In this document: positions 20,016-42,472 of the stretch, in pieces
How the letters are laid out: each line of letters begins with the position of its first letter
Position numbering within the stretch: the first letter of the stretch is position 1
Assembly (NCBI GenBank): GCA_015075425.1
Contig: JABTUL010000001.1
Span: forward strand, 372,001 to 436,000
Direction of reading: 5' to 3'
Origin: Spirochaetales bacterium
GTDB lineage: Bacteria > Spirochaetota > Leptospiria > Leptospirales > Leptonemataceae
DNA length: 64,000 nt
Program-made: the position numbers and the translations under genes
Notes under the pieces: generated by a model
Told to the model about the DNA's origin: nothing
Databases searched by the model: none
Seen by the model: the letters and a program-made list of their open reading frames with translations, nothing else

Positions 20016-22625
20016 TTATTGATTGTTCCGCCAGTATTCCAGCAGCGCCTGCAGCGCCTGGGGCTGGTTATCCGGCTTCTGTCCGCCGCTTTGATCAAAG
20101 CGATTCAAGCCGTGGCAGCCAGCGCAAACCCGCACTTCACCGGCCTTAAATGATACCCAGTTGCGTTCCCTCACAATTGGCGGGTAGGATAACGCACTGT
20201 TGCCCGCATCTTCCGGACCGACAAGCTGCCAGGTCATGGCCCGGTACGCCGGAACAAAAGCGGCAAAGGATCCATCAGGATAGATCTTTGCCATACTTTT
20301 TTCGCGTGCGGGAACTGATTCACCGAGTGTATTATAATCCTGCGCCGTGCTCACATGCAAAGGCACCGCCAGAATTCTGCGACCGGCCACGGCACCACCA
20401 TAACCGTACAGATTGAGCGATGGCTTGTAGGCGCGGATGCGGTCGCCCTGGAAGATTTCCAGATAGCTTACCGGAAGTATGGTCGCATCGCCGGGCAATC
20501 CAGGCACCACACTTTGAACTCCGTTCTGCCCTTCATGTACTACTTTGAGATTGTAAGGCTGTCCGCGGTCGCCACGGTCGCGTGACGTGACATCGCGTCC
20601 CACAATCAGGGCCAGATCACGACTGGCCATCCAGCTTTTCAAATCATCCATATCCAGGGAGGCAGGATCCAGTGTATTCTCGATGACTGTTTTTTCGATG
20701 TCGGGAACCGTGCCTGTTACGGCCGGTGGAACGTTGCGCTCTATAACTTCAACGGGATCCATTTCCCAGAGATTACCCTCAAAGCCCCGCAGCGCACCGC
20801 TGCCATCATACCACTGGACTTTTTTTTGAATCCCGGATGTTAGCGGTGCGCCGGCACGCCAGATGCTCCCCTGGGTAACCAGTTTCTTCAATCGCAAATC
20901 ATAACCATTGATTTCCAGCTTCGTTACTCCGTTCACGGCCGGTTGGAACTTTTGATCACAACCTTTATCATCAATATCAAAGCTGAAGTCCGAAGGAGAA
21001 GGGTAGGGCGTATTGACGGCGATCATCTCGGAAGAGGAGAGGCGCAGCGGGTGACGAAATCCACCATCAGGCCCAAAATCAGTCAGACCGCCGCTGGAGG
21101 TCCTGTTTTCCAGAGCCATATCATCGGGATTCACATCCGGCGCTGCTTGAAAGCAAACGATGTTTCCGGTGGCCGCTTTACGAAATTCCAGGCTGTACAC
21201 TCCGCAAAAAAGACCGGTCGTTCTGTCTTCGCGTACCTGAAAAAGGCCGGCAGACCCGGCCATGAAATGTTTGTTTGCTATAGAACTCAAAAAAGGATGA
21301 TTTTCTTCCAGATATAGCTTGGGGTCAACAATAACAGCGTGGTTAAACGATCCGCCCCATTCATGGCGCCCGATGTGATTGAGCGTTTCCTCCTCCGAAC
21401 CATCCTGGTTGACCATCCACGGATAGAAATGATTGAAGTCGTACTGGCGGATCACCCGGCCCTGAACATCCAGATATTCGTTTTTTCTTTTTTGAAAGGC
21501 AGTCAGAATCTGTTCAGCGGTGTTTGCCCCGGCCAGAGGGTACGCAGAATCAAAATCGCCCCGCGATTGTTCCGGAAAAAAATCGTCGCCGTACTCCAGG
21601 TATTTGGGATCCGTGGGAGGCATTTTCTGGAAAGGCCCCTGGTTTCCGGCCACCAGTGTTGCGGTCGTCGATTCATCCGAGTAGTTGACTCCGCCGCCCG
21701 GTGTGCCTCCCGATTGACCAAAACCATCGACGCGCAAATGGTCCCATTTGGTGAAGACAATGCGACCGTACGAATCCACGAACGGGTCAAAAGCTCCACT
21801 GGGAGAATCTTGAATCATGCGCGGATTGTTTGGACCGGCAGCCTGCAAAGGATCAAGCCTCCAGATCCCTCCGACGGTGGGTGCGCGTTCATACTCGTCG
21901 AGTAGCGGTGCCAGATGGGCTGCCTGACCGCGGGGCGCATCGGATATGAAAAGAATTTTATCGTCTGAAGAGTAGAACGGCGCTATATTATTGAAACTTT
22001 CAGGCTGACCCTGTACTTTCACGATCTGGGGCGTCTCCTCCGGTCCGAATCCGCTAATTTCATAAATCTGCCAGCGAAAGGCAGGGTCGGCAGAATTGAA
22101 GGGATCCACCGGCGAGCCGATTACCATGGAGAAGAGGGCTTTCTTTCCGTTCCAGTGCACTGCAGGCTGGCGCACGGCGATGGGTGAAGTGGCCTGTCCT
22201 GGCAATCCAGCCTGGAGAATGGCGGCTGAACCCAGCCCGGCCGCCAGGGTAAGATTGCGGAGCCCGTCCGGGTAAAGCGCAGCATCGTAGGTTCCCCTGG
22301 CATATTTTATGTAGAGATCACCACCGCGGGGAGCCGATTTGGCCGTGGCTTTTTGATTGAGAAAGGCCTCCGTGACTGCATCCATGGTGGCGCACACGGG
22401 CACCTGCGTTACAAAAAGGATACTTTTTTGTAAATCGGCTGTACTCTGGCCCGACGATCCTCCGCTACCTCCCGCAGAACCAAGGAGCAGTAACAACCAG
22501 GGCAGCAGATTGGCCCCTTTGCGCCCGGAGAACAAATGACTGAACTCCGACAGAGGCCATACGGAGCATCCGTTACAGAAAAGGAGCAAAACAGTACAGA
22601 GAAGGACCAAAAACCGACGACGCAT
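20016..22625 (-). CDS. large lipoprotein, hydrazine-synthase-alpha-like with one haem c site
   Basis: An 869-residue lipoprotein (lipobox ending FCNGC). The body resembles the middle domain of hydrazine synthase alpha, a family also widespread in bacteria that make no hydrazine. Propeller-like stretches (APFYSSDDKILFISD, SYGRIVFTKWDH) are followed by a region with IYPDGSFAAFVPA and WVSFKAGEVRVCAGCHG near the C-terminus. CAGCH is a c-type haem attachment site; it is the only CxxCH seen. A periplasmic or outer-membrane redox or binding role is likely, but the substrate is unknown. It appears to be the first gene of the minus-strand run 22625-16233. Confidence 0.75.
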   Translation of the reverse strand: MRRRFLVLLCTVLLLFCNGCSVWPLSEFSHLFSGRKGANLLPWLLLLLGSAGGSGGSSGQSTADLQKSILFVTQVPVCATMDAVTEAFLNQKATAKSAPRGGDLYIKYARGTYDAALYPDGLRNLTLAAGLGSAAILQAGLPGQATSPIAVRQPAVHWNGKKALFSMVIGSPVDPFNSADPAFRWQIYEISGFGPEETPQIVKVQGQPESFNNIAPFYSSDDKILFISDAPRGQAAHLAPLLDEYERAPTVGGIWRLDPLQAAGPNNPRMIQDSPSGAFDPFVDSYGRIVFTKWDHLRVDGFGQSGGTPGGGVNYSDESTTATLVAGNQGPFQKMPPTDPKYLEYGDDFFPEQSRGDFDSAYPLAGANTAEQILTAFQKRKNEYLDVQGRVIRQYDFNHFYPWMVNQDGSEEETLNHIGRHEWGGSFNHAVIVDPKLYLEENHPFLSSIANKHFMAGSAGLFQVREDRTTGLFCGVYSLEFRKAATGNIVCFQAAPDVNPDDMALENRTSSGGLTDFGPDGGFRHPLRLSSSEMIAVNTPYPSPSDFSFDIDDKGCDQKFQPAVNGVTKLEINGYDLRLKKLVTQGSIWRAGAPLTSGIQKKVQWYDGSGALRGFEGNLWEMDPVEVIERNVPPAVTGTVPDIEKTVIENTLDPASLDMDDLKSWMASRDLALIVGRDVTSRDRGDRGQPYNLKVVHEGQNGVQSVVPGLPGDATILPVSYLEIFQGDRIRAYKPSLNLYGYGGAVAGRRILAVPLHVSTAQDYNTLGESVPAREKSMAKIYPDGSFAAFVPAYRAMTWQLVGPEDAGNSALSYPPIVRERNWVSFKAGEVRVCAGCHGLNRFDQSGGQKPDNQPQALQALLEYWRNNQ

Positions 22626-25412: not shown

Positions 25413-26561
25413 CTACAGATTCTCTACGGAACCGTAGGTCTGCATCGTATCGCGGAAGCTACTATTGACGGCTCGCAGGTAATCCTCGCTCACGGCAAAG
25501 GGCGCGACACGAGCTTCATCGATAACCCCGTCCAGGGGTCTTGAGCCATCAGGATGCCGGCCCACAACAATGCTCCGTGCGTCCTGGTCAAGCGTGCCCG
25601 TAAAGGCAGTTGATTCAACGAGCGTCCCATTCAAATAAATCTTTCCCGTGGTGCCATCATACGTAGAAACAACATGATACCAGTTACCGGTGGACAGTGG
25701 CCCGGTAACGTCTGTATCCACTATGGCGGTCGTGGTTCCGCCGGTGCGAATCCGCGAGCGCAGATAGTGAGGGCCGCCGCCAAAAGTGGACAGGGCCCAG
25801 GTGTGGTCGGCGTCACTGACAAAAGAGGTAGCCTTGGTTAAAAGTCGTCCGTCGCTTACAGTAAAGCTATTGAATTTCAGGAACAATTCCATGGTGAGCC
25901 CATCATTGCCTGGACCGACAGGAGGGACATTCCAGTTTCCCAGCTGGACTTCATGATTGGAAAACACAGGAGCCGGGCCTTCGCTGAAGCCCTCACCGTT
26001 GGATCTGTTTGCCACCGTTACGGCGGTGGACGGATGGGAGCCAGTGGAGTCGCCATAGGTGCCGGTTTCCTCTGTAAAATGGTACACGGCCGTGTAATCG
26101 GACCAGACCGTAGCAGCATCCTCAGCCGCGGCCGCATTCGGGTTGTTGAAATACAAATAAATAAAATCGGAAGTACTGTTGGCGGCAATCTGTGGCACCC
26201 GGACTTGCAGCTCTGCCTTCTGCTGGGCCGCATCAAACCAGACCAGTTCATGAGAGAGGAGGGTGGTTGCGTCAGAACCGTAAAAGCGGATGTCGGCGCC
26301 CGTGCTCTGCAGATCGTCAAAATCAAGACGGGCCGAGTTTAAGCGAATCGTGGCCGGAAAGTCCGTCAATTGACCCCGACCGGAGTTGTCGAAAGTAATG
26401 GCCATTCTGTTTTTCCAGCCGCTATTTGTGGTTCCAGCGGCCGCACCGGAGGGACCCACCAGTAAAAGGCCCAGGTAGGCCCCGCTACCCATATCCCGAC
26501 AGGCTCCCACGGAGAGACAAAGGATTCCGAATAGAAACAGTCGCGGCACAGGCTCAAGCAT
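25413..26561 (-). CDS. DUF2341 / LamG-domain lipoprotein
   Basis: A 382-residue lipoprotein with lipobox SVGAC near residue 21. The mature part has a DUF2341-like domain (about 50-150, including WKNRMAITFDNS and YLYFNNPNAAAAED) and a LamG/concanavalin A-like jelly roll (about 190-370, including NWYHVVSTYDGTTGKIYLNG and DGVIDEARV). Such domains bind glycans or proteins at the cell surface. It lies 53 bases upstream of the DsbD-like gene on the same strand and is divergent from the sigma factor gene. Confidence 0.85.
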   Translation of the reverse strand: MLEPVPRLFLFGILCLSVGACRDMGSGAYLGLLLVGPSGAAAGTTNSGWKNRMAITFDNSGRGQLTDFPATIRLNSARLDFDDLQSTGADIRFYGSDATTLLSHELVWFDAAQQKAELQVRVPQIAANSTSDFIYLYFNNPNAAAAEDAATVWSDYTAVYHFTEETGTYGDSTGSHPSTAVTVANRSNGEGFSEGPAPVFSNHEVQLGNWNVPPVGPGNDGLTMELFLKFNSFTVSDGRLLTKATSFVSDADHTWALSTFGGGPHYLRSRIRTGGTTTAIVDTDVTGPLSTGNWYHVVSTYDGTTGKIYLNGTLVESTAFTGTLDQDARSIVVGRHPDGSRPLDGVIDEARVAPFAVSEDYLRAVNSSFRDTMQTYGSVENL

Positions 26562-26652: not shown

Positions 26653-27177
26653 ATGCGACACAATTTGGATCCGGACCAACTGATTTTTTTGCGGCCTCTG
26701 GTGGTCCGCTACATTGCGCGAAAGTGCGGATCACAGAGTCAGGCAGAAGACATAACTCAGGAAGCTCTGGAAAATGCCCTGCGCTACGCCCATACATTCG
26801 ATCCACAAAAAGCGAGCGCTGCCGCCTGGCTTTGCACTATAGCCCGGAACATCTGGGTGCGGCGCTATGCCCGGGATGCCCGGCAGGGAATAACTGTGGA
26901 CGCCACGGCAGAACTGACCCAGATTGCGGCTTCGGGAGACGATCCTGGTATGGTTCTGGAAAAGAGCGAGCTCATTCAGACTCTCAGTCAGGCCTTGCTT
27001 TCCCTGCCGGAACCGGAACGAACCATAATTCGACTCAAATATTTTGAGAAAAAGAAACTTTCTGAAATTGCTGTGTCCGTTGACCTGTCAGAGCGGACTA
27101 TAACCAGAAAAGTGACAAAAGCTTACGAAATGCTCCGGAAGGTTCTGGAGGGTGCAGGATGGTACGATGAAACGTAA
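26653..27177 (+). CDS. ECF-type RNA polymerase sigma factor
   Basis: A 174-residue sigma-70 family protein with only regions 2 and 4. Region 2 (about 10-75) contains AEDITQEALENAL and ends with AAWLCTIARNIWVRRYAR. Region 4 (about 109-165) contains LPEPERTIIRLKYFEKKKLSEIA, followed by a helix-turn-helix (DLSERTITRKVTKAYEMLRK) that would read the -35 element. It begins the plus-strand cluster, and its last 11 bases overlap the next gene, a FecR-like membrane regulator that is the likely anti-sigma factor. The 91-base upstream gap shows no promoter I can assign. Confidence 0.9.
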   Translation: MRHNLDPDQLIFLRPLVVRYIARKCGSQSQAEDITQEALENALRYAHTFDPQKASAAAWLCTIARNIWVRRYARDARQGITVDATAELTQIAASGDDPGMVLEKSELIQTLSQALLSLPEPERTIIRLKYFEKKKLSEIAVSVDLSERTITRKVTKAYEMLRKVLEGAGWYDET

Positions 27178-28366
27178 TACAGATGATCGTTTCGAACACC
27201 TGGCCGGACTCAAGTTGTTGCAAGCAGCCACCCCTCAGGACGAAGAGGAGTGGAAGGAGCTGACCCGACAGAGTCCGGATCTGGCTACAAGGTTCCAGAA
27301 ATTGCAGAGCCTGGACCGGTTGCTCGCCAGCCTGCCTGACGATGTGCAGCTGGCCATTCAAGAAAAGGTGGCCGCGCCCGGGTCATCCACCTTATCCCGT
27401 CGCTTTTTTCTTCCAGGTGCAGCGCTGGCCGCAACCATTCTGCTCGCTCTCTGGTTTCTGGTCCGGCAGGAGGATAAGGTAGAGCAGCCTCTGCTGGCCT
27501 ATCAGTTTGAACTCGAAGCCGGGGCCTGCCAGTACAGGGCTGGGGGACAGCTGGAAAAAGGAGCAACCGTGGAGCACGGTGAGTTTCACGTTCCTTTATT
27601 TTGCGTTTTACGCCTGAAGGGCGAAGACCGATTTCGATTGACCCTTACCGCCAACTCCTCCTTCCAGCTTGCCCAACCATCAGGGGGACTGGATATTCGT
27701 CTGGAACGCGGCCAGGCGCTCATTGAAGAAGCCAGTCGTCCGGAAAATTACAGAACCTCCCTGATCATCGGCGATGCGCGGGCGACCCTGATTGGAACAC
27801 GCCTGAGCGGACGCGTGGAAGATAGCCGGGCCCGCTTTCAGGTTCTGGAAGGTGAAATTCGGCTGCAACAATCTCTGCTGAATCTGAGCAGCAGTCCCTC
27901 CCTTCAGAAGCAACGGTCCAGAATGGAAGAGGCCCTGGGCAGGGGCCTGGAAATTTCGCTGCGCTCCGGCCAGGAAACTGCCCTCTCTCTGGGAAACCTG
28001 CCTGAAAAGGAGCGGCTGCTCGGCGAAATCCGCCTGCTTCTGGAGCAGTCGGCCAGTGCGGAGGAAATCGCAACCTGGAAGGAGATGTTGCCCACCGCTT
28101 CGAAGAGCCAACTTTTACTCACGGCCGGGCCAGCGGTAAAGGACCTCAGTCCGGCAGAAATCCTGGCAGCAGAGACCCACTTTCGTTTCCCCGGAGCGCA
28201 AGCGGGAAATGTGGCCCGGGGGATCCTTTTCATCCATCTAAAAAATGGAACGGTTGTTTCTGGTGAGATCCTGGCCACAGAGCCGGAGTACCGCATTCGG
28301 ACAGCGGACGGGCAAATGCTTTCCATTCCAGGAGCAGCAGTGCAAAGAATTTCCAGCGACCCATGA
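27167..28366 (+). CDS. FecR-like membrane regulator with C-terminal Sm-like module
   Basis: A 399-residue protein with a cytoplasmic N-terminus (about 1-80) that probably binds the sigma factor, one membrane helix (about 85-105, LPGAALAATILLALWFLV) and a periplasmic FecR-like domain (about 165-235, including ARATLIGTRLSGRV and FQVLEGEIRL). It ends in a short beta module (about 352-399: HLKNGTVVSGEILATEPEY, then a hydrophobic strand). That module recurs in genes 31305-32222 and 32664-33491. ATG 27167 is preferred; GTG 27152 is also open, and GGAGG abuts it. The overlap with the sigma gene supports a sigma/anti-sigma pair. Confidence 0.75.
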   Translation: MKRNTDDRFEHLAGLKLLQAATPQDEEEWKELTRQSPDLATRFQKLQSLDRLLASLPDDVQLAIQEKVAAPGSSTLSRRFFLPGAALAATILLALWFLVRQEDKVEQPLLAYQFELEAGACQYRAGGQLEKGATVEHGEFHVPLFCVLRLKGEDRFRLTLTANSSFQLAQPSGGLDIRLERGQALIEEASRPENYRTSLIIGDARATLIGTRLSGRVEDSRARFQVLEGEIRLQQSLLNLSSSPSLQKQRSRMEEALGRGLEISLRSGQETALSLGNLPEKERLLGEIRLLLEQSASAEEIATWKEMLPTASKSQLLLTAGPAVKDLSPAEILAAETHFRFPGAQAGNVARGILFIHLKNGTVVSGEILATEPEYRIRTADGQMLSIPGAAVQRISSDP

Positions 28367-28370
28367 TCCC

Positions 28371-29897
28371 ATGAATCTATGGCGAAACCTGGCCAGGCTA
28401 CGTCCGCGGAAATCACTTCGTTTCAAGATTCTCAGTATATACGGGGTGATTGCTCTGGGAACCATTGTCTTTTTTACCGGCCTTATCTTTGAGAATCAGA
28501 CGGATTTACTGACTGCCAATTTTCGTCATGAAATCCATAATCTGGTTCGTTCCGTTTCCGAAACCATCGGCAAACAAAAAGTTACGGCCCGCGATACAGA
28601 ATCTTTCCGTGAGCTGGCCGCCACCCTGTTTGCCCAAAATATTCGGGCCTTCACGGTCTTTGATGATCAGAGCCGAATCGTTTTTCACACTCCAGCGGAC
28701 ACGAACTTCCAGTTACCGCAATGGGTGGGGCAACAAACTCAGGAGTTGCGAGCCGGGAGCGCTCTATTTGAAACCAACCATAATGTCCTTCTGGATGAAA
28801 ATGACTTTGTAGCTTCAGCAGTATTCCGACTGCCGGCCCAGGGAAAGGAGCAGCTTTATCTCCATGCACCGTTGAGTCTGGCCACCATTACGGAACGACT
28901 GCACCAGATTTACTGGCAGGTACTTATCGCCGTCCTCTGGGGACTTTTGCTCAATGTTGTGTTCGGAGTGTTTGTGTACCGGACCATCTTCACTCGTGTC
29001 TTCCAACTTCAGCAGGCAACCGAGGATGTGGCAGCCGGAAATCTCACAGCCAGAGCTGTCTGGAAACGGTCGGATGACGATGAACTGGATCGGATGGGTG
29101 ATGCTTTCAACAGCATGGCAGAAAAAATTGAAGAAACGGTAACGGCCATCTCCCGTATGAATGCGGAAATGCAACAGGAGCTTGCCTTTGGCCGCGACGT
29201 TCAGGAAAGTTTTTTGCCCGATGCGGCCACTTTCAGCCATTTTGCCCCGGCAATCATCTATGAGCCCTTCAGAGAAGTAAGCGGAGACATCTACGGCTTT
29301 TATAAACTGCGCGCTCGTAGTGGCGGTAACTTGCATTGCTTTTTTTTTGCTGATGCCACGGGACACGGAGTTTCCGCGGCGCTGGTCACAACCGTCATCC
29401 TGCAACATCTGCGTTCCGCCATCAATCGTAGCGTGCGACCCGGACAGGTACTCGATCAGGTTGGCGGTAAAATGGAAGCGACATTTCAGGCCAGGTTCAA
29501 TGCTACCGCCGTATTTGGTGTGATTACTGATTCTGGTATTCTCTACATAAGCAATGCCGGCCACCTGCCAGTTATGGTTATCGGAACCGACGGAACTCTG
29601 CGCAAAGCGATCCCCCCTGGCGGACCGGTTCTTGGTGTCATGGATCAGTTTTCCTATGAAGAAGAGCGCCTGCAACTTTTGCCAGGAGATCGGATTGTAA
29701 TTTATTCCGATGGCCTCACAGAAGCCCCTTCTGCCACGGGTCAATTCTTTGGAACAGATAGGATGCAGGATACTGTCGTCAGATATGCACAATTGCCAAC
29801 CCGGGAGATGGTGGAGCATATATTTCAAGAAGTTAAGGATTTTTGCCCGCGCTTTACGGATGATGTCACTCTTTTAGCGCTGAGTGTTCCCGAATGA
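28371..29897 (+). CDS. membrane HAMP/SpoIIE serine phosphatase
   Basis: A 508-residue sensor phosphatase. A first membrane helix (about 20-40) and a second (about 180-205) flank a periplasmic sensor domain, followed by a HAMP linker (about 205-260), a short coiled coil and a C-terminal SpoIIE/PP2C domain. Catalytic motifs are GDIYGFYKL (about 304), DATGHGVSAAL (about 327), YSDGLTEA (about 444) and FTDDVTLLAL (about 495). It should dephosphorylate a STAS protein in response to an envelope signal. The start, ATG 28371, is four bases after the FecR-like stop, and its end overlaps the next gene in an ATGA junction. Confidence 0.9.
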   Translation: MNLWRNLARLRPRKSLRFKILSIYGVIALGTIVFFTGLIFENQTDLLTANFRHEIHNLVRSVSETIGKQKVTARDTESFRELAATLFAQNIRAFTVFDDQSRIVFHTPADTNFQLPQWVGQQTQELRAGSALFETNHNVLLDENDFVASAVFRLPAQGKEQLYLHAPLSLATITERLHQIYWQVLIAVLWGLLLNVVFGVFVYRTIFTRVFQLQQATEDVAAGNLTARAVWKRSDDDELDRMGDAFNSMAEKIEETVTAISRMNAEMQQELAFGRDVQESFLPDAATFSHFAPAIIYEPFREVSGDIYGFYKLRARSGGNLHCFFFADATGHGVSAALVTTVILQHLRSAINRSVRPGQVLDQVGGKMEATFQARFNATAVFGVITDSGILYISNAGHLPVMVIGTDGTLRKAIPPGGPVLGVMDQFSYEEERLQLLPGDRIVIYSDGLTEAPSATGQFFGTDRMQDTVVRYAQLPTREMVEHIFQEVKDFCPRFTDDVTLLALSVPE

Positions 29898-31321
29898 AAG
29901 TTCGTCTGGCTCTGCTCGCGGCCATTTTCATTGCTCTTTTGCTATTCAGTTCCGATTCCATCATGAAGCTCAATGTGAAATTGCTCAAGATAGACATTGC
30001 TCGCGAGCAGATGATGAAGTATGAACTTTCGTCGCGCCTGTTGCGCTACAAATTCAAAAGACTCCTTCACCATTCAGAAGAGATGGAGTCTGAGCTGGGT
30101 TTGTCAGTGGCTGATTCAGCAACGCTGAACCACGCTCATTTAACAGACATCCGACCGGATCCGGGGATCCAGGAAAGGCTGGCCGTGCAAATGGTTAATG
30201 TCATCCGGGCTCTGGGTTTAAAACCACCCCTGCGTCTGGATGATGATCGGCGGCTGCTGGGCCGCCTGCAAGCTGCTTTTTATTTTGAAAGGCTCAAGCA
30301 ATACAAAAGGGCTGCAGATCTTTACAGCAGTCTTATTGAGGAATTGCAGCGGGGTAGCCCCGAACATGGCTTTGCTCTCTTGCATGCGGGCTACTGCGCG
30401 GCTCTGCAGGGCAATGTCGGGCTGGCTTCTGCCCGATTGAAACAGGTGACGAAGGATCATGCCGGTTCCCATTTTGGCGAAAGCGCAGAAATATTGCTGG
30501 AGATTCTGGCGGAACGCGGCCGGCAGAAGGTGCGCATTGAAGCGATTCCCGATGCAGAAGCCCGGGCCAGGGAATACTATCGGTCCGGCCGTTTTCAGGA
30601 AGCGTTACAAACCATGGAGCAGTTGCCCGATCCGCCGCCTGATCTGACATTTATTCGCGCTCGCAGTCTGGAAGAATCCGGACAACTGGAAGAAGCAAAG
30701 AATCTTTACAATACGATCATTCGATCGCCGCAGGCATCACCTCAGATGTTAAAATTCACCAATCGTCGCCTTTTGCTGGTCAATACCATCTACCTGCCAG
30801 ATGAAAAAGAAGCGGCCCGGGCAGCGGATCGGGCCATACAACTGGGGGATACTGCCACCGTTACTTCCGTTCAGAAGGCTGTGGAGCTACGAATGGCACC
30901 GGTCATTAACGGTGATTCCGAAGATCCTCTGCTTGGCTCACTCAGTCAGGAAATTCGCGCAAACGAAACAAGAACGGCTGAGGTGATTCCAGATCGGCCA
31001 CCGCACCGCAGATTACCGGCCTTTTCCGTCCTCCTTGTGGACCAGAGGCTGATCGAAAGTTCACGGCTGGAATTTAGAAATGATCAGGCCCTGGTGGAAG
31101 TGGACGACCTGCAAATGGCCCTGCCGCAGCTTCTGCTCAAGGAATTGCGGTCCCCGCATCAGATTCTTGTGACCGCTGGTGGCACAGAATCCGCCGGCAC
31201 GGCACTGCGTTTTGAAAGAGAGAAAGCCTACTTGATTACAGTGGACGGAGAAAAAGAAATCCCCCTGTCCGATATTGAGAGTGTCCGGATGGACCCTCAA
31301 TGGTATGAAAAACCGCGCTAA
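29894..31321 (+). CDS. TPR-like protein with N-terminal membrane anchor
   Basis: A 475-residue protein with an N-terminal hydrophobic helix (KVRLALLAAIFIALLLFSS) that is an uncleaved anchor or signal. TPR-like helical repeats follow (about 110-330; for example ARAREYYRSGRFQEALQTM and RSLEESGQLEEAKNLYNTI). The C-terminus (about 415-470) is beta-rich, with ILVTAGGTESAGTALRF and PLSDIESVRMDP, reminiscent of the Sm-like module of neighbouring genes. It starts within the stop codon of the SpoIIE gene, so the products are probably made together. It may be a scaffold of the same signalling complex. Confidence 0.7.
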   Translation: MKVRLALLAAIFIALLLFSSDSIMKLNVKLLKIDIAREQMMKYELSSRLLRYKFKRLLHHSEEMESELGLSVADSATLNHAHLTDIRPDPGIQERLAVQMVNVIRALGLKPPLRLDDDRRLLGRLQAAFYFERLKQYKRAADLYSSLIEELQRGSPEHGFALLHAGYCAALQGNVGLASARLKQVTKDHAGSHFGESAEILLEILAERGRQKVRIEAIPDAEARAREYYRSGRFQEALQTMEQLPDPPPDLTFIRARSLEESGQLEEAKNLYNTIIRSPQASPQMLKFTNRRLLLVNTIYLPDEKEAARAADRAIQLGDTATVTSVQKAVELRMAPVINGDSEDPLLGSLSQEIRANETRTAEVIPDRPPHRRLPAFSVLLVDQRLIESSRLEFRNDQALVEVDDLQMALPQLLLKELRSPHQILVTAGGTESAGTALRFEREKAYLITVDGEKEIPLSDIESVRMDPQWYEKPR

Positions 31322-32222
31322 AAGGTTCATGATCGGCTTCATGCTTCTGCTTTCTTCCCTGAAAGCTGATGTGCTTACTCGCAAAACCGGTGAAGTTCTG
31401 GAAGGTCGATTCCAGAGCGCTCAGGACGGTATCATTACCTTTGAACATCAGGGAGTCCTGCTGCGTATACCGGCCACAGAAATAGCCGGTCTTGATCTGG
31501 GATATCCGGGAGCTTCAGTTTGTTACACTCTGCGCTACAGACCGGAAGAGACACATTGCGATGGATTGCTGGTGATTTTGCAAAAAGGTGAAGTGGGCTT
31601 TGCCGATCCATCGGGAATGAAAATAAAAGAACGCCTTCCGGCTTCAAGTCTGGGATCGATAACCTTTCAGAAGAATTCCTCCTGGGAAACGATTGTCCCG
31701 GCCCTGCAGCCCGGAGTCCGGGTCAAGCTGGTGATTCGCGGCAGTGTGCCCGTGGAAGCGGAGGTGACGGCGGTGCGCGGTGATCGGCTGGACTTACGGG
31801 ACACCTCCGGCAAGACCTGGCAGATCAAAGAAGAAGCCATTGAGCGCGGTGAAATTCTGAGCGCAGGCCCGGCGCAAAGGAACTGGGCAATGCTGGTTCC
31901 GGGGCTGCCGCAGTACCGCCGGGGCTCTCGTGTGCGCGGTCTGGTCTGGATGGGCGGCTACCTCGGCGCGGCCGCTCTTGCCGGCTTTTCTTTCCAGCAG
32001 CGCGAGAGGGCCATTGACGCCGCACACCAGGACTTGCGCTTCTGGCTGGTCAATTCTTCTTCCCACGTGTCCGACTACCGGCGCTATGATGGCCAGCTGC
32101 GAGCCACGGTGGCCGTGCTTTTTCTGGCCTATCCCTTTCACCTGTGGGATGGCGGTGCCTTTGAAGTCACGAGCAGCCAGGCTGGTGCCAGTACATTCGT
32201 GGGCATTACGATTCGACAGTAG
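31305..32222 (+). CDS. Sm/SH3-like module membrane protein
   Basis: A 305-residue protein with a signal-like start (FMIGFMLLLSSLKA), then an Sm/SH3-like module (about 18-60: DVLTRKTGEVLEGRFQSAQ, ending LRIPATEIAGLDLG). A second beta-rich region follows, and then a C-terminal membrane segment with LVPGLPQYRRGSRVRGLVWM and a later hydrophobic helix, like the DUF5683-type membrane end of gene 32664-33491. ATG 31305 overlaps the previous gene by 17 bases; ATG 31329 is also possible. The last 17 bases overlap the end of the opposite STAS gene. Function unknown. Confidence 0.65.
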   Translation: MKNRAKRFMIGFMLLLSSLKADVLTRKTGEVLEGRFQSAQDGIITFEHQGVLLRIPATEIAGLDLGYPGASVCYTLRYRPEETHCDGLLVILQKGEVGFADPSGMKIKERLPASSLGSITFQKNSSWETIVPALQPGVRVKLVIRGSVPVEAEVTAVRGDRLDLRDTSGKTWQIKEEAIERGEILSAGPAQRNWAMLVPGLPQYRRGSRVRGLVWMGGYLGAAALAGFSFQQRERAIDAAHQDLRFWLVNSSSHVSDYRRYDGQLRATVAVLFLAYPFHLWDGGAFEVTSSQAGASTFVGITIRQ

Positions 32223-32544
32223 CTCCTGCGGGTATCGTATCCACAAATTCAAAGAGTTTCTCAATAAACATAAGCCGGAACAGACTGCGGATCTCCGTGC
32301 TCGCGGAAACGAGCACAAATCGGGCTCCGGATCGCCCTTTGTAGCTACGCTGGGCTGCTATCAAGAGGGCCATACCGGAAGAATCAATGTGGGTCACGTC
32401 TTTCAGGACCAGGGCCAGCCTGTTGTGCTCTTTCATCCGCCCGTCCAGAAAGCGGCGAAACTCCGCCGCAGCAAAGAGATCCAGGACACCCTTAAGGTCC
32501 AGCACCAGAAAATCGCTCTTCTGGCTTTCAACGTACTCAAACAT
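32206..32544 (-). CDS. STAS-domain anti-anti-sigma factor
   Basis: A 112-residue single-domain STAS protein. The start MFEYVESQKSDFLVLDLKG and the core THIDSSGMALLIAAQ are typical; one Ser of the DSSG motif is the usual phosphorylation site. In partner switching the unphosphorylated form sequesters a GHKL anti-sigma kinase, and SpoIIE phosphatases reset it. The frame is open to 32604, but homology starts at ATG 32544. It is the only minus-strand gene in the cluster 26653-34558, converges on the Sm-like gene (17-base overlap) and diverges from the gene at 32664. Confidence 0.88.
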   Translation of the reverse strand: MFEYVESQKSDFLVLDLKGVLDLFAAAEFRRFLDGRMKEHNRLALVLKDVTHIDSSGMALLIAAQRSYKGRSGARFVLVSASTEIRSLFRLMFIEKLFEFVDTIPAGATVES

Positions 32545-32663
32545 GAACGCACTCCTGGCCCGTTTCCAGGACTTAGTCCCGGGCGCGGCGGTCATAGACA
32601 GCAAAAGGAAAAAAAACCTTCATTTCCCTGTCTGATTTTTTTGGGAGCAGCACTAAAAAGGTC

Positions 32664-33491
32664 ATGCAACTGAGGATTGTGGTTCTCTGGTTCTTTCCGG
32701 CCCTGGTTTTTGCAGATGTTGTTGTCTTGCGGAATGGACAGAGCCTGGAAGGAAGGATTCAGCGACAGGATCGTAGCAGCATCGTTCTGGAGACCACAAA
32801 TGGCCCGCGGACCATCGGTCGTCATGAAGTGCGTAGAATTACCTTTGGCGCTGTAGATCTGGAAGCTGCACAGCGCAGGGAGGAATTGCTGCGTCAGAAA
32901 AAAGCCGCCGAAGAAGAGTCCCGGGCAGAAGAGGAGCGCCTTCTTCTGGAGGAACGGAAAAAAGAAGAGGCCCGGCAGCGCGAGGAATCGAGCAACAGAA
33001 ACCGGGGACTGCTCTTGCGTTCCATGGTGCTACCGGGCTGGGGTCATCTGGCCGCCGGCCAGACCACACCGGGCGCACTGTACGCGGGCACGGCGGCAAT
33101 TATGGCTTCAGCTACAGCCTCCTTGCATACAAGCGCGATTGCGTCCCGCTCCGTCTATCATACCACAGCCTTGCGCAATAACTTGCTGGCCCTGCAGCTG
33201 GGCAGCGGCAATACGCTTTCCGCAGTTAAAGAATCCAGTCTCCTCTACAGCCTGGCCCTCAACCGCACAGCCCGACAGGACTATACCCGCTCTGTGGCCA
33301 ACTACAATGCTTTTCTGGCCGTGGATCTGACCTTTTACCTGGCGCAACTGGCACACCTTGCGATCAGTACCCGGTCGGAATCGATGAAGACAGCGGGCAG
33401 AGTGCATTTTCTCTTACTGCCGGATACACCAGAAACCAGACAGGCGCGACATGGTATTGCCTGGAGTTTTGCCTGGACAAATCAATTATGA
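32664..33491 (+). CDS. Sm/SH3-like module, coiled-coil and membrane protein
   Basis: A 275-residue exported protein. A signal peptide (MQLRIVVLWFFPALVFA) is followed by the Sm/SH3-like module (about 18-65: DVVVLRNGQSLEGRIQRQ, ending VRRITFG), a highly charged coiled coil (about 70-115, Glu/Arg/Lys-rich), and a DUF5683-like C-terminal membrane region beginning LRSMVLPGWGHLAAGQ. The same order of module and membrane region is seen in gene 31305-32222, so the two are probably paralogues. Its stop overlaps the next start in an ATGA junction. Function unknown; an envelope-associated role is likely. Confidence 0.7.
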   Translation: MQLRIVVLWFFPALVFADVVVLRNGQSLEGRIQRQDRSSIVLETTNGPRTIGRHEVRRITFGAVDLEAAQRREELLRQKKAAEEESRAEEERLLLEERKKEEARQREESSNRNRGLLLRSMVLPGWGHLAAGQTTPGALYAGTAAIMASATASLHTSAIASRSVYHTTALRNNLLALQLGSGNTLSAVKESSLLYSLALNRTARQDYTRSVANYNAFLAVDLTFYLAQLAHLAISTRSESMKTAGRVHFLLLPDTPETRQARHGIAWSFAWTNQL

Positions 33492-34558
33492 AACTTTTTA
33501 TTATCATTTATATTGCGCTCTGTGTTTCCTGTCTGGGCGTGGAAAATAGTCCCTACGATACAGCTCGGGGAGGGGTCCAGGGATTCTTTCTTCTGGATGC
33601 ACTGGCAAAAAATCCAGATCACACGCAGCGCATTCGTTTCCTGGTGAGCACGGATGCCCAGTCCATTCTGGAATCGAGCGGCGATGGTCATTGGAAGAAG
33701 ATCGATTACAGCGCTGAACCCTTTTCGCGACTCGCCCTGAGGGGACAGACACTTCTTGCACTGGGCTCCGGAAATGATACCTACTATTCTTCTCTGGACA
33801 TGGGTCGGAGCTTCAGCAGCCAGACGGTTCCCCTCGGTGGTTTTCAGGCCAATCGAATCGCCGCTTGTGGAGATCTTGTAGTCGTGACCACACATGCCGG
33901 GGGTACGGGTTTTCGAGCAACCACCAGTCTAAATGGAGGTCAGAGCTGGACCGGACCCGTACTGATCCAGGGCGGCGGCCCGGCTTCAGCGGACCTGGCA
34001 ACCTGCCCGGAAACTGCGGCGGGTACTTGCAGCGGGTTCTGTATGGCTTCAGGCTCCGGCGGCGGGACACACATAACAGCCCATGCGAGCGACGGCGCTA
34101 ACTGGAACACTATCGCCGGGCTTCCGGCGGGAACACGTAACGGCGCAGCATCAGGACGGCAGGGCATTCTCATTGGAACTTCAACAGGGGGAATTTATCA
34201 TTCCTCCGGTGATCCGACCAATTTTTCTCTGGTCGATACAGCCCTCAGTTACATCGGGCAAATCGTTCATACCGGTGATGTTTTCCTTTCCGTTTCTCTC
34301 AGCGGTGCCGTTGTGCAACTGCGCCGTTCTCATGATCCCGCTTCTGGCATCTGGACACAGACCGACGTTGACTTCTCCGTGGATCCGCCCACGATCAATT
34401 CGCTGACGGCCAAAAATGGCGTTGTCCTTCTTGTGGGCAATCGCAGTGGCAATCCGTTCATTTTGCGCAGTACGGATCACGGTCTGTCCTGGATACAGGA
34501 TGAAATCAGCTTTTCCGGTATTACCAGCCTTTCCGATGCCATGAGCATTCTGGAATGA
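33488..34558 (+). CDS. lipoprotein with BNR/propeller-like repeats
   Basis: A 356-residue lipoprotein (MKLFIIIYIALCVSC, lipid on the last Cys). The mature part looks like a beta-propeller with Asp-box-like turns: SGDGHWKKI, SLDMGRSF, SLNGGQSWTGP, ASDGANWNTI, STDHGLSWIQD. Such repeats occur in sialidase-like and photosystem-assembly (Ycf48-like) propellers; no catalytic residues can be assigned. It is the last gene of the ECF sigma cluster and is translationally coupled to the membrane protein before it. Confidence 0.75.
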   Translation: MKLFIIIYIALCVSCLGVENSPYDTARGGVQGFFLLDALAKNPDHTQRIRFLVSTDAQSILESSGDGHWKKIDYSAEPFSRLALRGQTLLALGSGNDTYYSSLDMGRSFSSQTVPLGGFQANRIAACGDLVVVTTHAGGTGFRATTSLNGGQSWTGPVLIQGGGPASADLATCPETAAGTCSGFCMASGSGGGTHITAHASDGANWNTIAGLPAGTRNGAASGRQGILIGTSTGGIYHSSGDPTNFSLVDTALSYIGQIVHTGDVFLSVSLSGAVVQLRRSHDPASGIWTQTDVDFSVDPPTINSLTAKNGVVLLVGNRSGNPFILRSTDHGLSWIQDEISFSGITSLSDAMSILE

Positions 34559-35938: not shown

Positions 35939-36826
35939 TCAGGGCATGGGGGACAGACGATCTCCGTCCAGGATCCCTTCACCGGGAAACAAAATCACAG
36001 CATCGCCTTCTTTCAGACCATCCTCACCCTGAGCACCCGGAAGTGCATCGTCCGGGCCGCGCATCTCCAGAACCACTTTTAAAAGTCGGGCTTTGTTTCC
36101 TTCCACCCGAAACACCGCCCAATCCTCACCGGAGCGGAAAAGGGCGGCCGTTGGTAAAATAAGACTATCTTTGCGGCTTACCGTTACAATCCGACATTGA
36201 ACACGAAAGCCATCTGCCAGCTGCGGTGGTGCCTGGGGCAGTTCCATGATGATTCGCGTACGTTGTTCTTCCACGCCCAGAGCAGAAATGCGGGTGCGGC
36301 CCGATGGTTCGACTCTTTTCACTGTTGCCTGCAATTCCGGCCCGCCCCAATCAAAGAGGGTTACCGCATTACCGGGCTGCACATGCACCGCTTCACGGGT
36401 GAGCACATCGGCTTCCACTTCCAGATCCTGCGTATTTCCCAGAGTCATAATGACGCTGCCCATTTCTATCGGGCCCTCACTCTCCCTCTCTATGGAAAGA
36501 ATCGCGCCATCCACCGGAGCTGTTACACGGCGGGGAGAATCCCAGCGAATGGTGGCCAGATGATCGCCTTTTTTGACGACATCGCCTGCATGGTGATGGA
36601 TGCGCTCGAGCACGCCACTGACTGGAGAAAGAATGACAAAGCGCTCCTTTACCCGCGTTTTTCCTTCCACCAGGACGTGCTGCTCATAAACACCCTTGCG
36701 TACTTTGCTCAGTTCCACCCGGTGCGGCGACGGACGCATGATAAAATAGAGTATAAAAAGAAGAAGAACACCGCTCACGATCCAGACTTTACGATCCCGC
36801 CAGTTGATAGAACGAATCCATTTCAT
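35939..36826 (-). CDS. periplasmic adaptor (HlyD/MacA type) of an ABC exporter
   Basis: A 295-residue membrane-fusion protein. It has one N-terminal membrane helix (VWIVSGVLLLFILYFIM), then a lipoyl/barrel-sandwich hybrid domain (SPVSGVLERIHHHAGDVVKKG with a second half VTAPVDGAILSIE), and a beta-barrel and membrane-proximal part. The helical hairpin is short. It should link the inner-membrane permease to outer components. ATG 36826 is preferred because GAGGA lies seven bases upstream; ATG 36844, which overlaps the permease gene, is the longer alternative. It is the last gene of the minus-strand run from 42389. Confidence 0.85.
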   Translation of the reverse strand: MKWIRSINWRDRKVWIVSGVLLLFILYFIMRPSPHRVELSKVRKGVYEQHVLVEGKTRVKERFVILSPVSGVLERIHHHAGDVVKKGDHLATIRWDSPRRVTAPVDGAILSIERESEGPIEMGSVIMTLGNTQDLEVEADVLTREAVHVQPGNAVTLFDWGGPELQATVKRVEPSGRTRISALGVEEQRTRIIMELPQAPPQLADGFRVQCRIVTVSRKDSLILPTAALFRSGEDWAVFRVEGNKARLLKVVLEMRGPDDALPGAQGEDGLKEGDAVILFPGEGILDGDRLSPMP

Positions 36827-36836
36827 TTTCATTTCC

Positions 36837-39194
36837 TCATTCATGCAATTTGAGCACGCTGATAAAATCCATTGTTTTTATTTTGCGCCAGACAAGCCAC
36901 AAAGTCAGCAGAACCGAAGCCAGCTGGAGCAAGAAAGCATACATGTAGGTGCGCCCGGAGATGATGAGCGGGATGGTGAAGGTTTCTGTGGGGATCAAAA
37001 GCAGCAATCCCCGCGAAGAGATGTAGCCTAAAAAGGCTCCCAGCGGCAGGGACAGTCCCAGAAGGACCAGAAGTTCAAAAAGAAAAATGCCAAAGACCTC
37101 TTTGCGGTGAAAGCCCAGAACCCGCAGGGTCCCAAACTCACGCATTTGCTCCGACAGGGTGACAACGGCTGTATTGTAAACGATCCCGACAGCAATGGCT
37201 CCGGCCAGTAGAGTGAGAATAAAAACAAAAGAGAGTAGCATGCGTTCCATATTTTCCGTAAAGGATGCAAGAGCCGTGCTGCGCAAACTGACGGCGGAGA
37301 TGCCAGGATAACGCTTGACAATTCTCATAAAATCTTCTTCGGTCCTGGCATCCAGGTGGACAGTCGCGCTGTTCACCAGCCCCTCTTCATCCAGCAAACG
37401 GCGCAGTTCGCCGGCCTCCATGTAGACTCCCGCACCCAGCAGCTCTTCCACAAGGCCCACCAGACGCACACGAAAGGTTTGCCGGCCTTTTTCCAGTAGC
37501 TGGAAGGATACCAGGTCACCCGGACGAAGCCCCAGTCTGGAAGCCATCCCGCGGTTCATCAACAGACCTGTTGCCGGCAGGCGAACGGGCTGAAAGCTTT
37601 GTGAGAGAACTCTGCGCAGGAGGGCTTCCCGATGCAGGCCCATGATGACTGTATTTTTTACTTTTGTTTCATTGGTTATTTTTATCGGGACAGCGCGACT
37701 TCCTTCTACCCGGATAACTCCCGGTAGCAGAGCAAGCTCTTCAAGGGAACGCTCGCTGCTGGGCCTGTCCAGAATCAGTGTGGCAGAGCTGCGGTCCTGA
37801 AAATTAAACTGTAAATCCAGCATATGATCAAATGCGTCCAGCCAGAAGAGTCCCACAATCATGATCATCACCGCAAAACTCATTCCGGTCACCGCAAACA
37901 CCGTGCGCAGGGGACGACCAACCAGAAGCCGAACTGCAATCCGCAGTCGCACACTCAGGACACGGGAAAGGCCCAGTCGGTCCAGGATTCCGTGGCGAAA
38001 ATCGGGCGGTGCTGGAGGTCGCATGGCCACGGCCGGATCCAGACGCAGGATGGAGCGCAGCGAAGAAACCCCGCCGGCAAAGCCAGCGATAAGTGCAGCA
38101 AGCAGCGCAGCAAAAAGGACGTCCGTGCTGAGTTCAAAGGTCAGCGTGGGAAAACGGTAGTATTCCTGATAGAGAGCCGTCCAGGCACCGCCCAGGTAGA
38201 TTCCGTAAAGAATTCCAGGGATAAAGCCGGCGCAAACGATGCAGCCGATCAGCATGGCATAGTGGCTGACAATTTCTGACTGACGATAGCCCAGGGCTCT
38301 GAGTGTGGCCACCACCTCACGCTGCCGGGCGATCAAGCGACCCACTACAACGTGCAAAAGAAAGGCGGCCACACCCAGAAAAATGAGCGGCATGTAGACC
38401 GCTGTTGCTTTTAGCTGATTGATTTCGTCGTGCAGGAACATGTGCGAACTCTGGCGCATACGTCCGTAGGCCCCCGTGCCACCGTGAATCTCCAGCAGGG
38501 CATCGAGTTCTTTGATTATAGCGTCTTCCGAGCGACTGGTGTCCAGAGTGAGAGTAAGATCATTGTAAGTATCACGCATGTTGTAGGCTCCGGCGAGCAA
38601 AGCCTCCGGGAGCCACAGCACGCCAAAATGCGCGTCATCGGGCATGGGGTTACTGCCGCGAAAGGCAAAAACGTACTCAGGAGAGAGAGCTGTCCCGACA
38701 ACCCGCAATTCATAGCTGCGCCCGTTCATGGTGGCAAAAAGTTTGCTGCCTGCTTCAAGCCGATTCGCCAGGGCAAATGCCTCATTAATGACCACTTCAT
38801 CCATGGTCCGGGGCAAATGACCGCTGCGTAAAAAAAGAATATTGAGACGTTGCCCGTAGGGAGGTAAAGAAATCAATCGTCCTGTGGCCGGCTCTATTTT
38901 ACCGGGCAAATCCAGCAAAACCTCGCGAATGATCCGTCCCTCTGCTGCGCGAACACCGGGCATTACTTTGATTTGCTCCAGTAAAGACGCGGGAAATTGT
39001 TTTACGAACACAAAGACATCGGCAAAGTGAGATACATGGTAAAAATCGGAGCGTGCGGCTACCATGGCCTTGTAGGAAGAAAGCGTGGCTACCAGCATGG
39101 AGATGCCGATTGCCACGACAAAAGCCATGGACAGGACCTGCCAGCGCAGGTCTTTGATTTCCCTCCAGAGTTTTTTATAAAGTGTTTTTACCAC
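36837..39194 (-). CDS. ABC exporter permease with two FtsX/MacB-like regions
   Basis: A 785-residue permease. One helix follows the N-terminus (about 20-40), then a periplasmic MacB-like domain, a helix bundle (about 270-380), a second N-terminal-like helix (about 425), another periplasmic domain and a final helix bundle (about 665-780). The duplicated FtsX layout resembles permeases of the LolCE/YbbP type, with both halves in one chain, so one copy may act with an ATPase dimer. It starts at GTG 39194 and overlaps the ATPase gene by seven bases. Substrate unknown; lipid, lipoprotein or small-molecule export are all possible. Confidence 0.85.
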
Positions 39195-39895
39195 TGGATG
39201 TCTGCAGCAGCAAGTCGCTTTTCCGGTTTCTGTATGCTGCTAACCCGACCATCAGCCATGCGGATGACCCTGTCGGCTAAATCGGCAATGGCAGCATTGT
39301 GAGTGATGAGAATGGATGTTGTGCCCAATTCACGGCTGACGCGATCAATGGCTTCGAGGACAACACGACCTGTGGCCACATCGAGCGCTCCCGTGGGTTC
39401 GTCGCAAAAAAGCAGTTCCGGTCGCCGGGCTATGGCCCGGGCGATGGCCACGCGCTGCTGTTCTCCGCCGGAAAGCTGAGCCGGAAAATGATCCGCGCGG
39501 GGACCGAGTCCCACCAGATCCAGAGCTTCTTCTGGTTTCAGTGGCCGCTCGCTAATCTCCGTAACAAGAGCCACATTCTCGCGCGCGGTAAGGGAAGGAA
39601 TTAAATTATAAAATTGAAATACAAAACCAACTGACTCGCGACGGTAATCGGTTAAAGAGGTCTCATCGCCGGGAAAAAGATTCTGGCCGCGAAAGAGCAC
39701 AATTCCGGAACTGGGCCGGTCCAGGCCGCCCAGAATATTCAGGAGTGTTGTTTTGCCGCTACCGGAAGGTCCAAGCAGAACCACCAGTTCACCATCGCGC
39801 AGTTCCAGGTTTATATCGCGAAGCGCATGAACGGCCGTTTCGCCGCTGCCAAATGTCCGTTCCAGATTTTGGGTCTCGAGGATAACCGGAGACAT
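39188..39895 (-). CDS. ABC exporter ATPase (LolD/MacB type)
   Basis: A 235-residue ABC ATPase. Walker A is GPSGSGKTT, the Q-loop is in [18 protein letters not shown], the signature is [15 protein letters not shown], Walker B is [12 protein letters not shown], and the switch His is in ILITHNAA. The Q-loop sequence and overall length match the LolD/MacB subfamily that pairs with FtsX-type permeases. Its gene overlaps the permease downstream and the STAS gene upstream (ATGA junction), so the exporter appears to be produced together with a regulatory protein. Confidence 0.92.
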
Positions 39896-40230
39896 CAGCC
39901 AAACGCAGCCAGTGCTTCGTCAATGTCGTCATAAAAATCGAGTAGCTGGTTGAGCCGGGTCAGGGTGACCACATTGCGAACGGAATCGGTGATGCGGGTA
40001 ATCTTGAGGTCCCCACCGGCCTTCCGTAGCTGGGTACGCGCAGAGATCAAGACTCCCAGCCCGGAACTGTCTATGTAGGCCACACCGGCCAGGTCAATGA
40101 TGACACGGGTTTTGCCGGCGAGCGTTAGATCTGCAATGGCTTCTCTGAGGGAGCGTGACTGAAACAGGTCGATATCCCCTTCCACTTCAATGAGTGCCGT
40201 ACCGGATAAATCCGATTGCCTGATTTCCAT
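39895..40230 (-). CDS. STAS-domain anti-anti-sigma factor
   Basis: A 111-residue STAS protein starting [18 protein letters not shown], with the phosphorylation motif [17 protein letters not shown]. It is a SpoIIAA/RsbV-like switch protein expected to be phosphorylated by a GHKL kinase and reset by a SpoIIE phosphatase. ATG 40230 is used rather than the longer frame to 40272. It is coupled by a 4-base overlap to the ABC exporter ATPase and follows cysN by 54 bases. A GHKL-like ATPase is encoded at 41568-42389 in the same run, and it may be the partner. Confidence 0.88.
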
Positions 40231-40284
40231 GATTCCCGCAATAAAATATGGAGGGTTCCCGTCAATCCGCAAGCCTGGCGGCCA

Positions 40285-41565: not shown

Positions 41566-41567
41566 TT

Positions 41568-42389
41568 TCAGGCCGCTTTCCGGGGCACCGGCAGTTCAAT
41601 AGTAAAAATAGTAGAGTTTCCGGCCGAGCGATACTGGATCAGCCGGGAAAAGGTAATGTCTTCATCGAAAGGAGCATAGCCTTCTTTTAAGAAAAGGACA
41701 ATGCTGCGCAGCCCGGCACCAAAGCCTCCGCCGGCATGGTCTGCGGGTTTATCGTACAGCCGGGCCGCAGCTTCCAGCGGGTTCTTTCCGGAATTGATCA
41801 GGTCCTCTTTGATTTTTTCCAGGTTGTACTCCACCCGGCTTTTGTCCACAACGGTTATGGGAGAGTTATTGATGACATTGAGTATCAGGATTTTCCGTCC
41901 ACTTTTGTCCTTAATCCGCATAGTTAGATCAATTTTTTTATTGAATTTCTCTGAAAGGGCAAAGGAATTCGTTTTATGCATTTCAATCAATTTCAAAATG
42001 GAGGAAGTAAGGTCGATTCCGTCCATATTGTATTTCTTCAAAAAATCCGTCTGATTGTGCTGGATGGCGTAATCAATATCAGCGAAGAGCTTTTCTTGCT
42101 TTTCATCCGGCCTTTCCCGCTGGGCACGCTGAAAAAGCGCATTGCGCAAAAGGGCCCAGCGATTGTTGGCCTTGTTGGCGTTATTGATCAGCTCCCCTAA
42201 AGACCAGAAAACAGCCTCTGCCAGCAGGTCATGGTCACTGATCTCATCGGACACGGTGGTATCGGGATTTTTAAAGATTTCGTAGATGAGCCGGCGCAGC
42301 TCTTTTTCCAGGGCGGAGATGTAATCCCGGCCAATGGACATGACCTGATCTTTTTTTTCCAGATCAGCCAGTTCCAGTCGTTCAGCCAT
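41568..42389 (-). CDS. GHKL/histidine-kinase-like ATPase domain protein
   Basis: A 273-residue cytoplasmic protein. Helical residues 1-130 contain an N-box-like motif, ELINNANKAN (about 64-77), and the C-terminal part has a glycine-rich lid, AGGGFGAGLRS (about 218-228), followed by a strand that closes the fold. These are marks of the GHKL ATPase fold shared by histidine kinases and anti-sigma kinases such as RsbW, though the G1 box is not clear. No phospho-accepting His domain is present. It may act as the kinase/anti-sigma partner of the STAS protein at 39895-40230. ATG 42389 is preferred to 42428. It is two bases upstream of cysN. Confidence 0.6.
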   Translation of the reverse strand: MAERLELADLEKKDQVMSIGRDYISALEKELRRLIYEIFKNPDTTVSDEISDHDLLAEAVFWSLGELINNANKANNRWALLRNALFQRAQRERPDEKQEKLFADIDYAIQHNQTDFLKKYNMDGIDLTSSILKLIEMHKTNSFALSEKFNKKIDLTMRIKDKSGRKILILNVINNSPITVVDKSRVEYNLEKIKEDLINSGKNPLEAAARLYDKPADHAGGGFGAGLRSIVLFLKEGYAPFDEDITFSRLIQYRSAGNSTIFTIELPVPRKAA

Positions 42390-42472
42390 GCCCTGATTCG
42401 AAATTGTGGAAGCGTACAGCCCCTTCAACCTTTTTTTGCGTGCAGGCCAGCCTGCCGGGCGAGCAATGGCCC

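Follow-up and report, generated by a model that had tools for sequence, protein, structure and literature searches.

A leptospiral gene cluster in which an ECF sigma factor-FecR pair adjoins a SpoIIE-TPR-STAS module and four proteins share a small Sm-like barrel

Why should an extracytoplasmic function (ECF) sigma factor with its anti-sigma factor be encoded directly next to a SpoIIE-type phosphatase and a STAS protein? This question is raised by a cluster at positions 26653-34558 of a 64,000-nucleotide stretch of DNA (the window; bases 372001-436000 of contig 1) from the 4.1 Mb genome of a Spirochaetales bacterium of the family Leptonemataceae (assembly GCA_015075425.1). We found that the two regulatory logics, ECF/anti-sigma and SpoIIE/STAS partner-switch-like, are indeed physically joined here and that envelope parts belong to the joined set, as the original prediction, made from the DNA letters alone, had proposed. 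With modest confidence, we regard the cluster as one envelope-signaling locus, a coupled sensor that would have arisen from two joined leptospiral systems. Its components, and one candidate partner encoded outside it, are the following (window positions):

26653..27177, plus strand: ECF sigma factor, 174 amino acids (Sigma70_r2 2e-15, r4_2 5e-9, TIGR02937 9e-29)
27167..28366, plus strand: fecR, FecR-type anti-sigma factor (Pfam FecR 29.1 bits, cut-off 24; AlphaFold2 (AF2) model; PDB matches)
28371..29897, plus strand: spoIIE, sensor phosphatase, module A (SpoIIE 6e-43, HAMP 1e-8)
29894..31321, plus strand: tpr, tetratricopeptide repeat (TPR) protein, module A (TPR_19 1e-7; alignment of 26 relatives)
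31305..32222, plus strand: smA, related to the LB_137 family (NF047503 LB_137 6e-18, below the curated cut-off; AF2 model)
32206..32544, minus strand: STAS protein of the anti-sigma-antagonist type (STAS 7e-13; open frame reaches 32604)
32545..32663, no strand: divergent intergenic region between the STAS gene and smB, judged from gene spacing a probable separate promoter region
32664..33491, plus strand: smB (NF047433, LA_0442/LA_0875 N-terminal domain, 7e-10, just under the cut-off)
33488..34558, plus strand: putative lipoprotein with Asp-box-like repeats, an optional passenger (no Pfam or NCBIfam match)
41568..42428, minus strand: GHKL-like protein outside the cluster, candidate partner (own hidden Markov model, 5e-25)

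Pfam confirmed the original assignments of the ECF sigma factor, the FecR protein, the HAMP-SpoIIE phosphatase, the TPR protein, and the STAS protein, and the Sm-like modules were confirmed by profile comparison with controls and by structure models. Judged from sequence, we hold the homology statements for the cluster genes with high confidence. Each of the seven genes on the plus strand, and likewise the STAS gene on the other strand, forms an open frame at the place described; the likely starts of fecR (27167), spoIIE (28371), smA (31305), and the STAS gene (about 32544) differ from those of the longest open reading frames. Most of the seven genes had been described as tightly spaced, but the tight run comprises five only: sigma and fecR overlap by 11 bp, fecR and spoIIE are separated by 4 bp, spoIIE and tpr overlap by 4 bp, and tpr and smA by 17 bp. 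The STAS gene is convergent with smA, and smB, which starts 441 bp past smA, is divergent from the STAS gene and shares 4 bp with the start of the lipoprotein gene. One seven-gene run is thus less likely than an operon of five genes, a STAS gene convergent with it, and a separate unit of smB and the lipoprotein gene. Scans of the cluster for promoters and terminators gave no excess over shuffles, and no consensus promoter was found in the STAS-smB region.

We distinguish a module A (SpoIIE phosphatase, TPR protein, smA of the LB_137 type, and STAS protein) from a module B (ECF sigma factor, FecR anti-sigma factor, and a small Sm-barrel protein, smB in the window). Module A was followed through 48 genomes of the class Leptospirae (loci are labeled L###, genomes G###). 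The phosphatase query had matches in 41 of 41 relatives, of which the close set (E < 1e-60) represents a specific family; loci were drawn from this set and from the TPR-family matches in the class, followed by gene calling. Triads of sigma factor, FecR, and small Sm-barrel membrane protein occur without module A at L092 in the window's own genome, at L079 (G004), and at L080 (G006). The layout sigma-fecR-[spoIIE-tpr-smA-STAS]-smB-lipoprotein is thus that of a module B with module A placed inside it.

Module A is conserved as a set in the genomes of families f1 and f2. The SpoIIE gene lies immediately upstream of the TPR-family gene in 55 of 55 loci in the 48 genomes, an arrangement that is therefore not due to chance. 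The usual order in f1 is MORN protein, phosphatase, TPR protein, smA, and then the STAS gene on the opposite strand, and the position and orientation of the latter are the same in many relatives; in f2, smA is often inverted and placed upstream. The MORN protein was rejected as a required part: many f1 genomes encode it ahead of the phosphatase, but it is missing from the window cluster. The phosphatase consists of a transmembrane segment, a predicted periplasmic region, a second transmembrane segment, a HAMP domain, and the SpoIIE/PP2C domain. Its Asp residues of the metal-site type, in GD, DATGHG, SDG, and DDV motifs, are invariant in 12 relatives, and a profile search retrieves solved SpoIIE-type phosphatases. 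Likewise, the Ser of the acceptor type in the DSSG motif of the STAS protein is invariant in 17 relatives, and its profile finds SpoIIAA/RsbV structures. The TPR protein has an N-terminal transmembrane anchor and a C-terminal Sm-like module, while smA combines a signal peptide, three tandem Sm-like barrels, and a helical end of the transmembrane type. smA scores 65.1 bits against the LB_137 family (NF047503; curated cut-off 200), and its relatives at L011 and L012 likewise stay under the cut-off; by NCBI's rule, smA is thus an LB_137 homologue and not a member.

The window's genome contains a second, standard copy of module A (L011, at 750-755 kb). The trees place the window copy on a long branch that is sister to L028 (support 0.97-0.98 in the phosphatase and joint trees, only 0.33 in the TPR tree); it did not arise from L011 by recent duplication. 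Next to the L028 copy, at L028:10471-11844, we observed a gene for a hybrid protein that joins MORN repeats to a FecR domain and has an Sm-like C-terminus. L028 was considered as a further sigma-FecR case and rejected: no sigma gene adjoins, and the MORN-FecR-Sm protein matches the lipoprotein LipL45. In Turneriellaceae, the third protein of the module has about 250 amino acids, with an Sm-like start and, judged by eye, an apparent outer-membrane-barrel-like end; a related protein of L043 gave a weak barrel hit. This architecture was seen in the third gene of L063, L060, L064, L069, L044, L066, L067, and L074, as well as at L043:13265-14281 and L078 (about 11988-13052).

The joining of the two modules recurs in other genera than that of the window: the gene-order search found it at L043, L078, and L068, in Turneriella and two relatives. 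Including the window, a sigma-FecR pair directly adjoins the phosphatase-TPR pair in 4 of 55 loci. The order at L043 (Turneriella) is STAS, phosphatase, TPR, sigma, FecR, and Sm-plus-barrel protein; L078 has the same order with one extra gene after the STAS gene; and L068 (L068:5339-12217) carries a sigma-FecR pair on either side of the phosphatase-TPR pair, with the STAS gene after one of them. At L023 and L027, sigma-FecR pairs lie within about 8 kb and are not directly adjacent. In the phosphatase tree, the joined loci fall into three distinct parts, and at least three of the four are independent. If each genome has three sigma-FecR pairs, the number seen in the window's genome among the neighborhoods of most of its FecR genes, and if shared descent is ignored, chance would give about 0.09 direct adjacencies among 55 loci; four were seen. 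This comparison is a rough guide. If each genome had 12 pairs, three adjacencies would still have a probability of 0.005, again with shared descent ignored.

In module B, the sigma factor has regions 2 and 4 only and adjoins a protein with a FecR domain over the Pfam cut-off. According to the AF2 model and hydropathy, FecR comprises a helical N-domain predicted to be cytoplasmic, one transmembrane segment, a PupR-like FecR lobe, and a C-terminal Sm-like barrel; the stretch between lobe and barrel is modeled with low confidence. The protein matches the NCBIfam anti-sigma family LIMLP_03685 along its length (3e-24, 85.9 bits; curated cut-off 200), and its FecR lobe fits PupR (6ovk; Z 14.8, root-mean-square deviation 2.5). 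No TonB-dependent receptor is encoded among the cluster genes. smB has a signal peptide, one Sm-like barrel, a charged linker, and a hydrophobic C-terminal part, and belongs to a large family with 11 matches in the window's genome. The class as a whole shows a strong expansion both of FecR-domain proteins, with up to 24 in one genome, and of membrane proteins that carry the Sm barrel. The lipoprotein encoded behind smB was ruled out as a core part, as no relative was detected in the 47 other genomes of the class. It had been described as a propeller protein, a guess from Asp-box-like repeats seen by eye; the protein matches no Pfam family and belongs to no conserved set.

What the two modules have in common at the protein level is a small barrel present in four proteins, located at the C-termini of FecR and the TPR protein and at the N-termini of smA and smB. 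When the four barrel alignments were compared with hhalign, they scored 95-98% with one another, whereas unrelated domains of the same cluster reached at most 0.5% and column shuffles 1.1%. In the AF2 model of smA (pLDDT, the predicted local distance difference test score, 85), three five-stranded barrels follow one another, and a long pair of helices is present as well. In comparisons with the PDB, the smA barrels matched YgdR (3fif, Z 5.7) and Hfq (2qtx, Z 6.2), a middling score taken alone, and the FecR barrel matched Hfq (3hfo) with Z 8.3. Matches of the helical end of smA to unrelated proteins (Z up to 7.7) were dismissed as common helix pairs. The same small fold is found in Sm/LSm (Hfq) proteins and in the DUF903/YgdR lipoproteins; in the cluster, by contrast, it forms one domain within larger membrane proteins and is repeated in tandem in smA. 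Because Tudor, KOW, and SH3 barrels score similarly, the fold alone gives no function. All four barrels are predicted to be periplasmic on account of signal-peptide-like or transmembrane starts, and RNA binding is for this reason unlikely; barrels of this kind are known from the envelope through the DUF903 proteins.

In PupR, an STN-like lobe close to the receptor makes up the second half of the signaling domain. In the FecR model, the barrel follows the PupR-like lobe and would stand where PupR has the STN-like lobe, which we consider the most interesting single observation of this analysis. The cluster thus resembles FecI-FecR and PupI-PupR in its FecR lobe and in the layout of N-domain and transmembrane segment, but differs from them in lacking a TonB receptor gene and in the Sm-like barrel as C-terminal part; the barrels may replace the receptor contact of FecR. 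A literature search found no description of a FecR protein with an Sm-like barrel, nor did we meet a description of the barrel that four of the cluster's proteins share.

We propose the following coupled sensor. In module B, the ECF sigma factor would be held by the FecR-type anti-sigma factor with its one transmembrane segment, accompanied by the small Sm-barrel membrane protein smB. Module A would contribute the HAMP-SpoIIE phosphatase with its periplasmic sensor region, the periplasmic TPR protein, smA, and the STAS protein. Barrel-to-barrel contacts among TPR protein, smA, smB, and FecR would bring the two signal-converting membrane proteins together in a single sensory complex. In response to a signal from the envelope, FecR would then change, so that sigma is freed or activated; the same signal would switch the phosphatase, leading to dephosphorylated STAS protein, which could sequester a GHKL (RsbW-like) partner encoded elsewhere. 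This model draws on the conservation of the modules, the recurrent joining, the shared barrel, the fit of FecR to PupR and Hfq, and the retained Asp and Ser residues. It also draws on the gene that precedes the STAS gene in relatives, which belongs to a single family (L009, L011-L015, L017-L019, L027, L039, L067, and window 41568-42428) that is GHKL-like by Pfam in several members, and on two reports on Leptospira interrogans, namely the anti-sigma N-domain of LIC_12756 and the suggested partner switching by Lb139. More tentatively, and perhaps doubtfully, in Leptospirae as a class FecR might take its signal from periplasmic Sm-like barrels (TPR protein and LB_137/LA_0875-type proteins) and not from a TonB receptor, with the same complex setting the SpoIIE phosphatase, so that an ECF sigma factor and the output of a partner switch would both depend on one envelope sensor.

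The cluster had been called undescribed-looking, which proved wrong or overstated, because both halves have known counterparts in L. interrogans, lb139-lb136 and LIC_12757/LIC_12756, and match the named NCBIfam families LB_137 and LIMLP_03685. Both loci are thus already known; what appears new is the small Sm/Hfq-like barrel common to four proteins. The locus lb139-lb136 (MY479_RS18445-60) encodes RsbU, a TPR protein, a hypothetical protein, and a STAS protein (PMC13066512; Eshghi et al. 2014 as described in citing papers). An Lb139 phosphatase mutant did not kill hamsters or colonize their organs and misregulated multiple genes, including motility genes (PMC5318464); the locus is reported, for L. 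interrogans only, as controlling motility and chemotaxis genes; and for Lb139, action on an alternative sigma factor through a partner switch was suggested (PMC5100919). Compared by gene order and family, lb139-lb136 resembles spoIIE-tpr-smA-STAS in gene kinds and order, and smA matches the LB_137 family. It differs in that the STAS gene here has the opposite orientation, the sigma and fecR genes lie directly upstream, and smA falls under the LB_137 cut-off.

LIC_12757/LIC_12756 is an ECF sigma-FecR pair (PMC12155086, PMC13118517), in which the N-domain of the FecR-like LIC_12756 is the anti-sigma part (PMC13118517); LIC_12757 is autoregulated (PMC12655853) and identical to LA0876 (PMC6941012). 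Here, too, an ECF sigma factor stands beside a FecR-like protein with one transmembrane segment and a helical N-domain of about 70 residues, but module A follows directly, and the LIMLP_03685 score is 85.9 against a cut-off of 200 bits. LIC_12756 itself would, by its length, fall into the LIMLP_03685 family. As LIC_12757 is LA0876 and LA_0875 gives the smB-type domain its name, the sigma-FecR-Sm triad may exist in L. interrogans as well. The window therefore holds, in one cluster and with a common predicted periplasmic domain, relatives of a virulence and motility regulator and of a sigma-FecR pair that have been studied separately. Their joining suggests that they respond to the same envelope signal in one pathway, and it offers a concrete answer to what the sigma target of Lb139 and the signal source of LIC_12757/LIC_12756 might be: each would be the other's partner.

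Several observations weigh against the coupled sensor. In 51 of 55 module A loci no sigma-FecR pair adjoins, so that coupling is not general, and the estimate of chance adjacency, which ignores shared descent and uses the pair count of one genome, is a rough guide. The barrel is abundant in these genomes, which makes its sharing weaker evidence of contact. smB and the lipoprotein gene probably form a separate transcript, given the 441 bp between smA and smB, the divergence from the STAS gene, and the overlap of the two genes. The cluster contains no GHKL gene, the nearest being 9 kb off, and in the GHKL family an Asn replaces the usual Asp of the G1 box, while the N-box and the G-rich box are kept; the GHKL-like proteins beside STAS may bind nucleotide without being kinases. 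A search of solved structures for this family gave weak matches. In comparison with RsbU/RsbV/RsbW and SpoIIE/SpoIIAA/SpoIIAB, the cluster shares the SpoIIE-type phosphatase and a STAS protein with the acceptor Ser, but its kinase-like gene lies outside with an altered GHKL motif, and its sigma factor is an ECF factor with its own FecR.

The strongest alternative, which we consider rather unlikely, is one-way wiring: sigma and FecR would only drive transcription of the operon by autoregulation, module A would be the output, and phosphatase and STAS protein would act elsewhere, for example on motility genes as for Lb139. Sigma and fecR do head the overlapping run, LIC_12757 is autoregulated in L. 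interrogans (PMC12655853), and most genomes have module A without the sigma factor. However, the sigma-FecR pair stands behind the phosphatase-TPR pair in L043 and L078 and not in front, and FecR itself carries the barrel found in the TPR protein and smA. Less probable still is that the modules became neighbors by chance rearrangement and function independently, for although direct joining is restricted to 4 of 55 loci and smB-lipoprotein is set apart, at least three separate joinings contrast with about 0.09 expected, by the same rough estimate, and the 4 bp spacing of fecR and spoIIE in the window suggests one transcript. The original prediction had left sensing and assembly side by side; sensing is the better reading, whereas a cluster that builds or positions an envelope structure under sigma control is very improbable. 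In its favor, the Turneriellaceae third protein has an Sm-like N-terminus and an apparent outer-membrane-barrel-like C-terminus, so that some members may span the periplasm; against it, no conserved version contains an ATPase, channel, or secretion component, and the lipoprotein is not conserved.

The surroundings of the cluster yielded further observations. The GHKL-like gene of the window is part of a minus-strand run at 35939-42428, which also encodes a CysN-type sulfate adenylyltransferase large subunit, a second STAS protein, an ABC ATPase, a MacB-like permease, and a HlyD-like protein, an odd mixture of sulfate assimilation and regulation. The minus-strand gene at 20016-22625 encodes a putative lipoprotein of large size that carries a CAGCH motif of the haem-binding type close to its C-terminus. 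Directly upstream of the cluster, at 25413-26561 on the minus strand, lies the gene of a protein with DUF2341 and a LamG-type lectin domain; as this gene and the sigma gene diverge from a gap of about 90 bp, the two could share a sigma-controlled divergent promoter.

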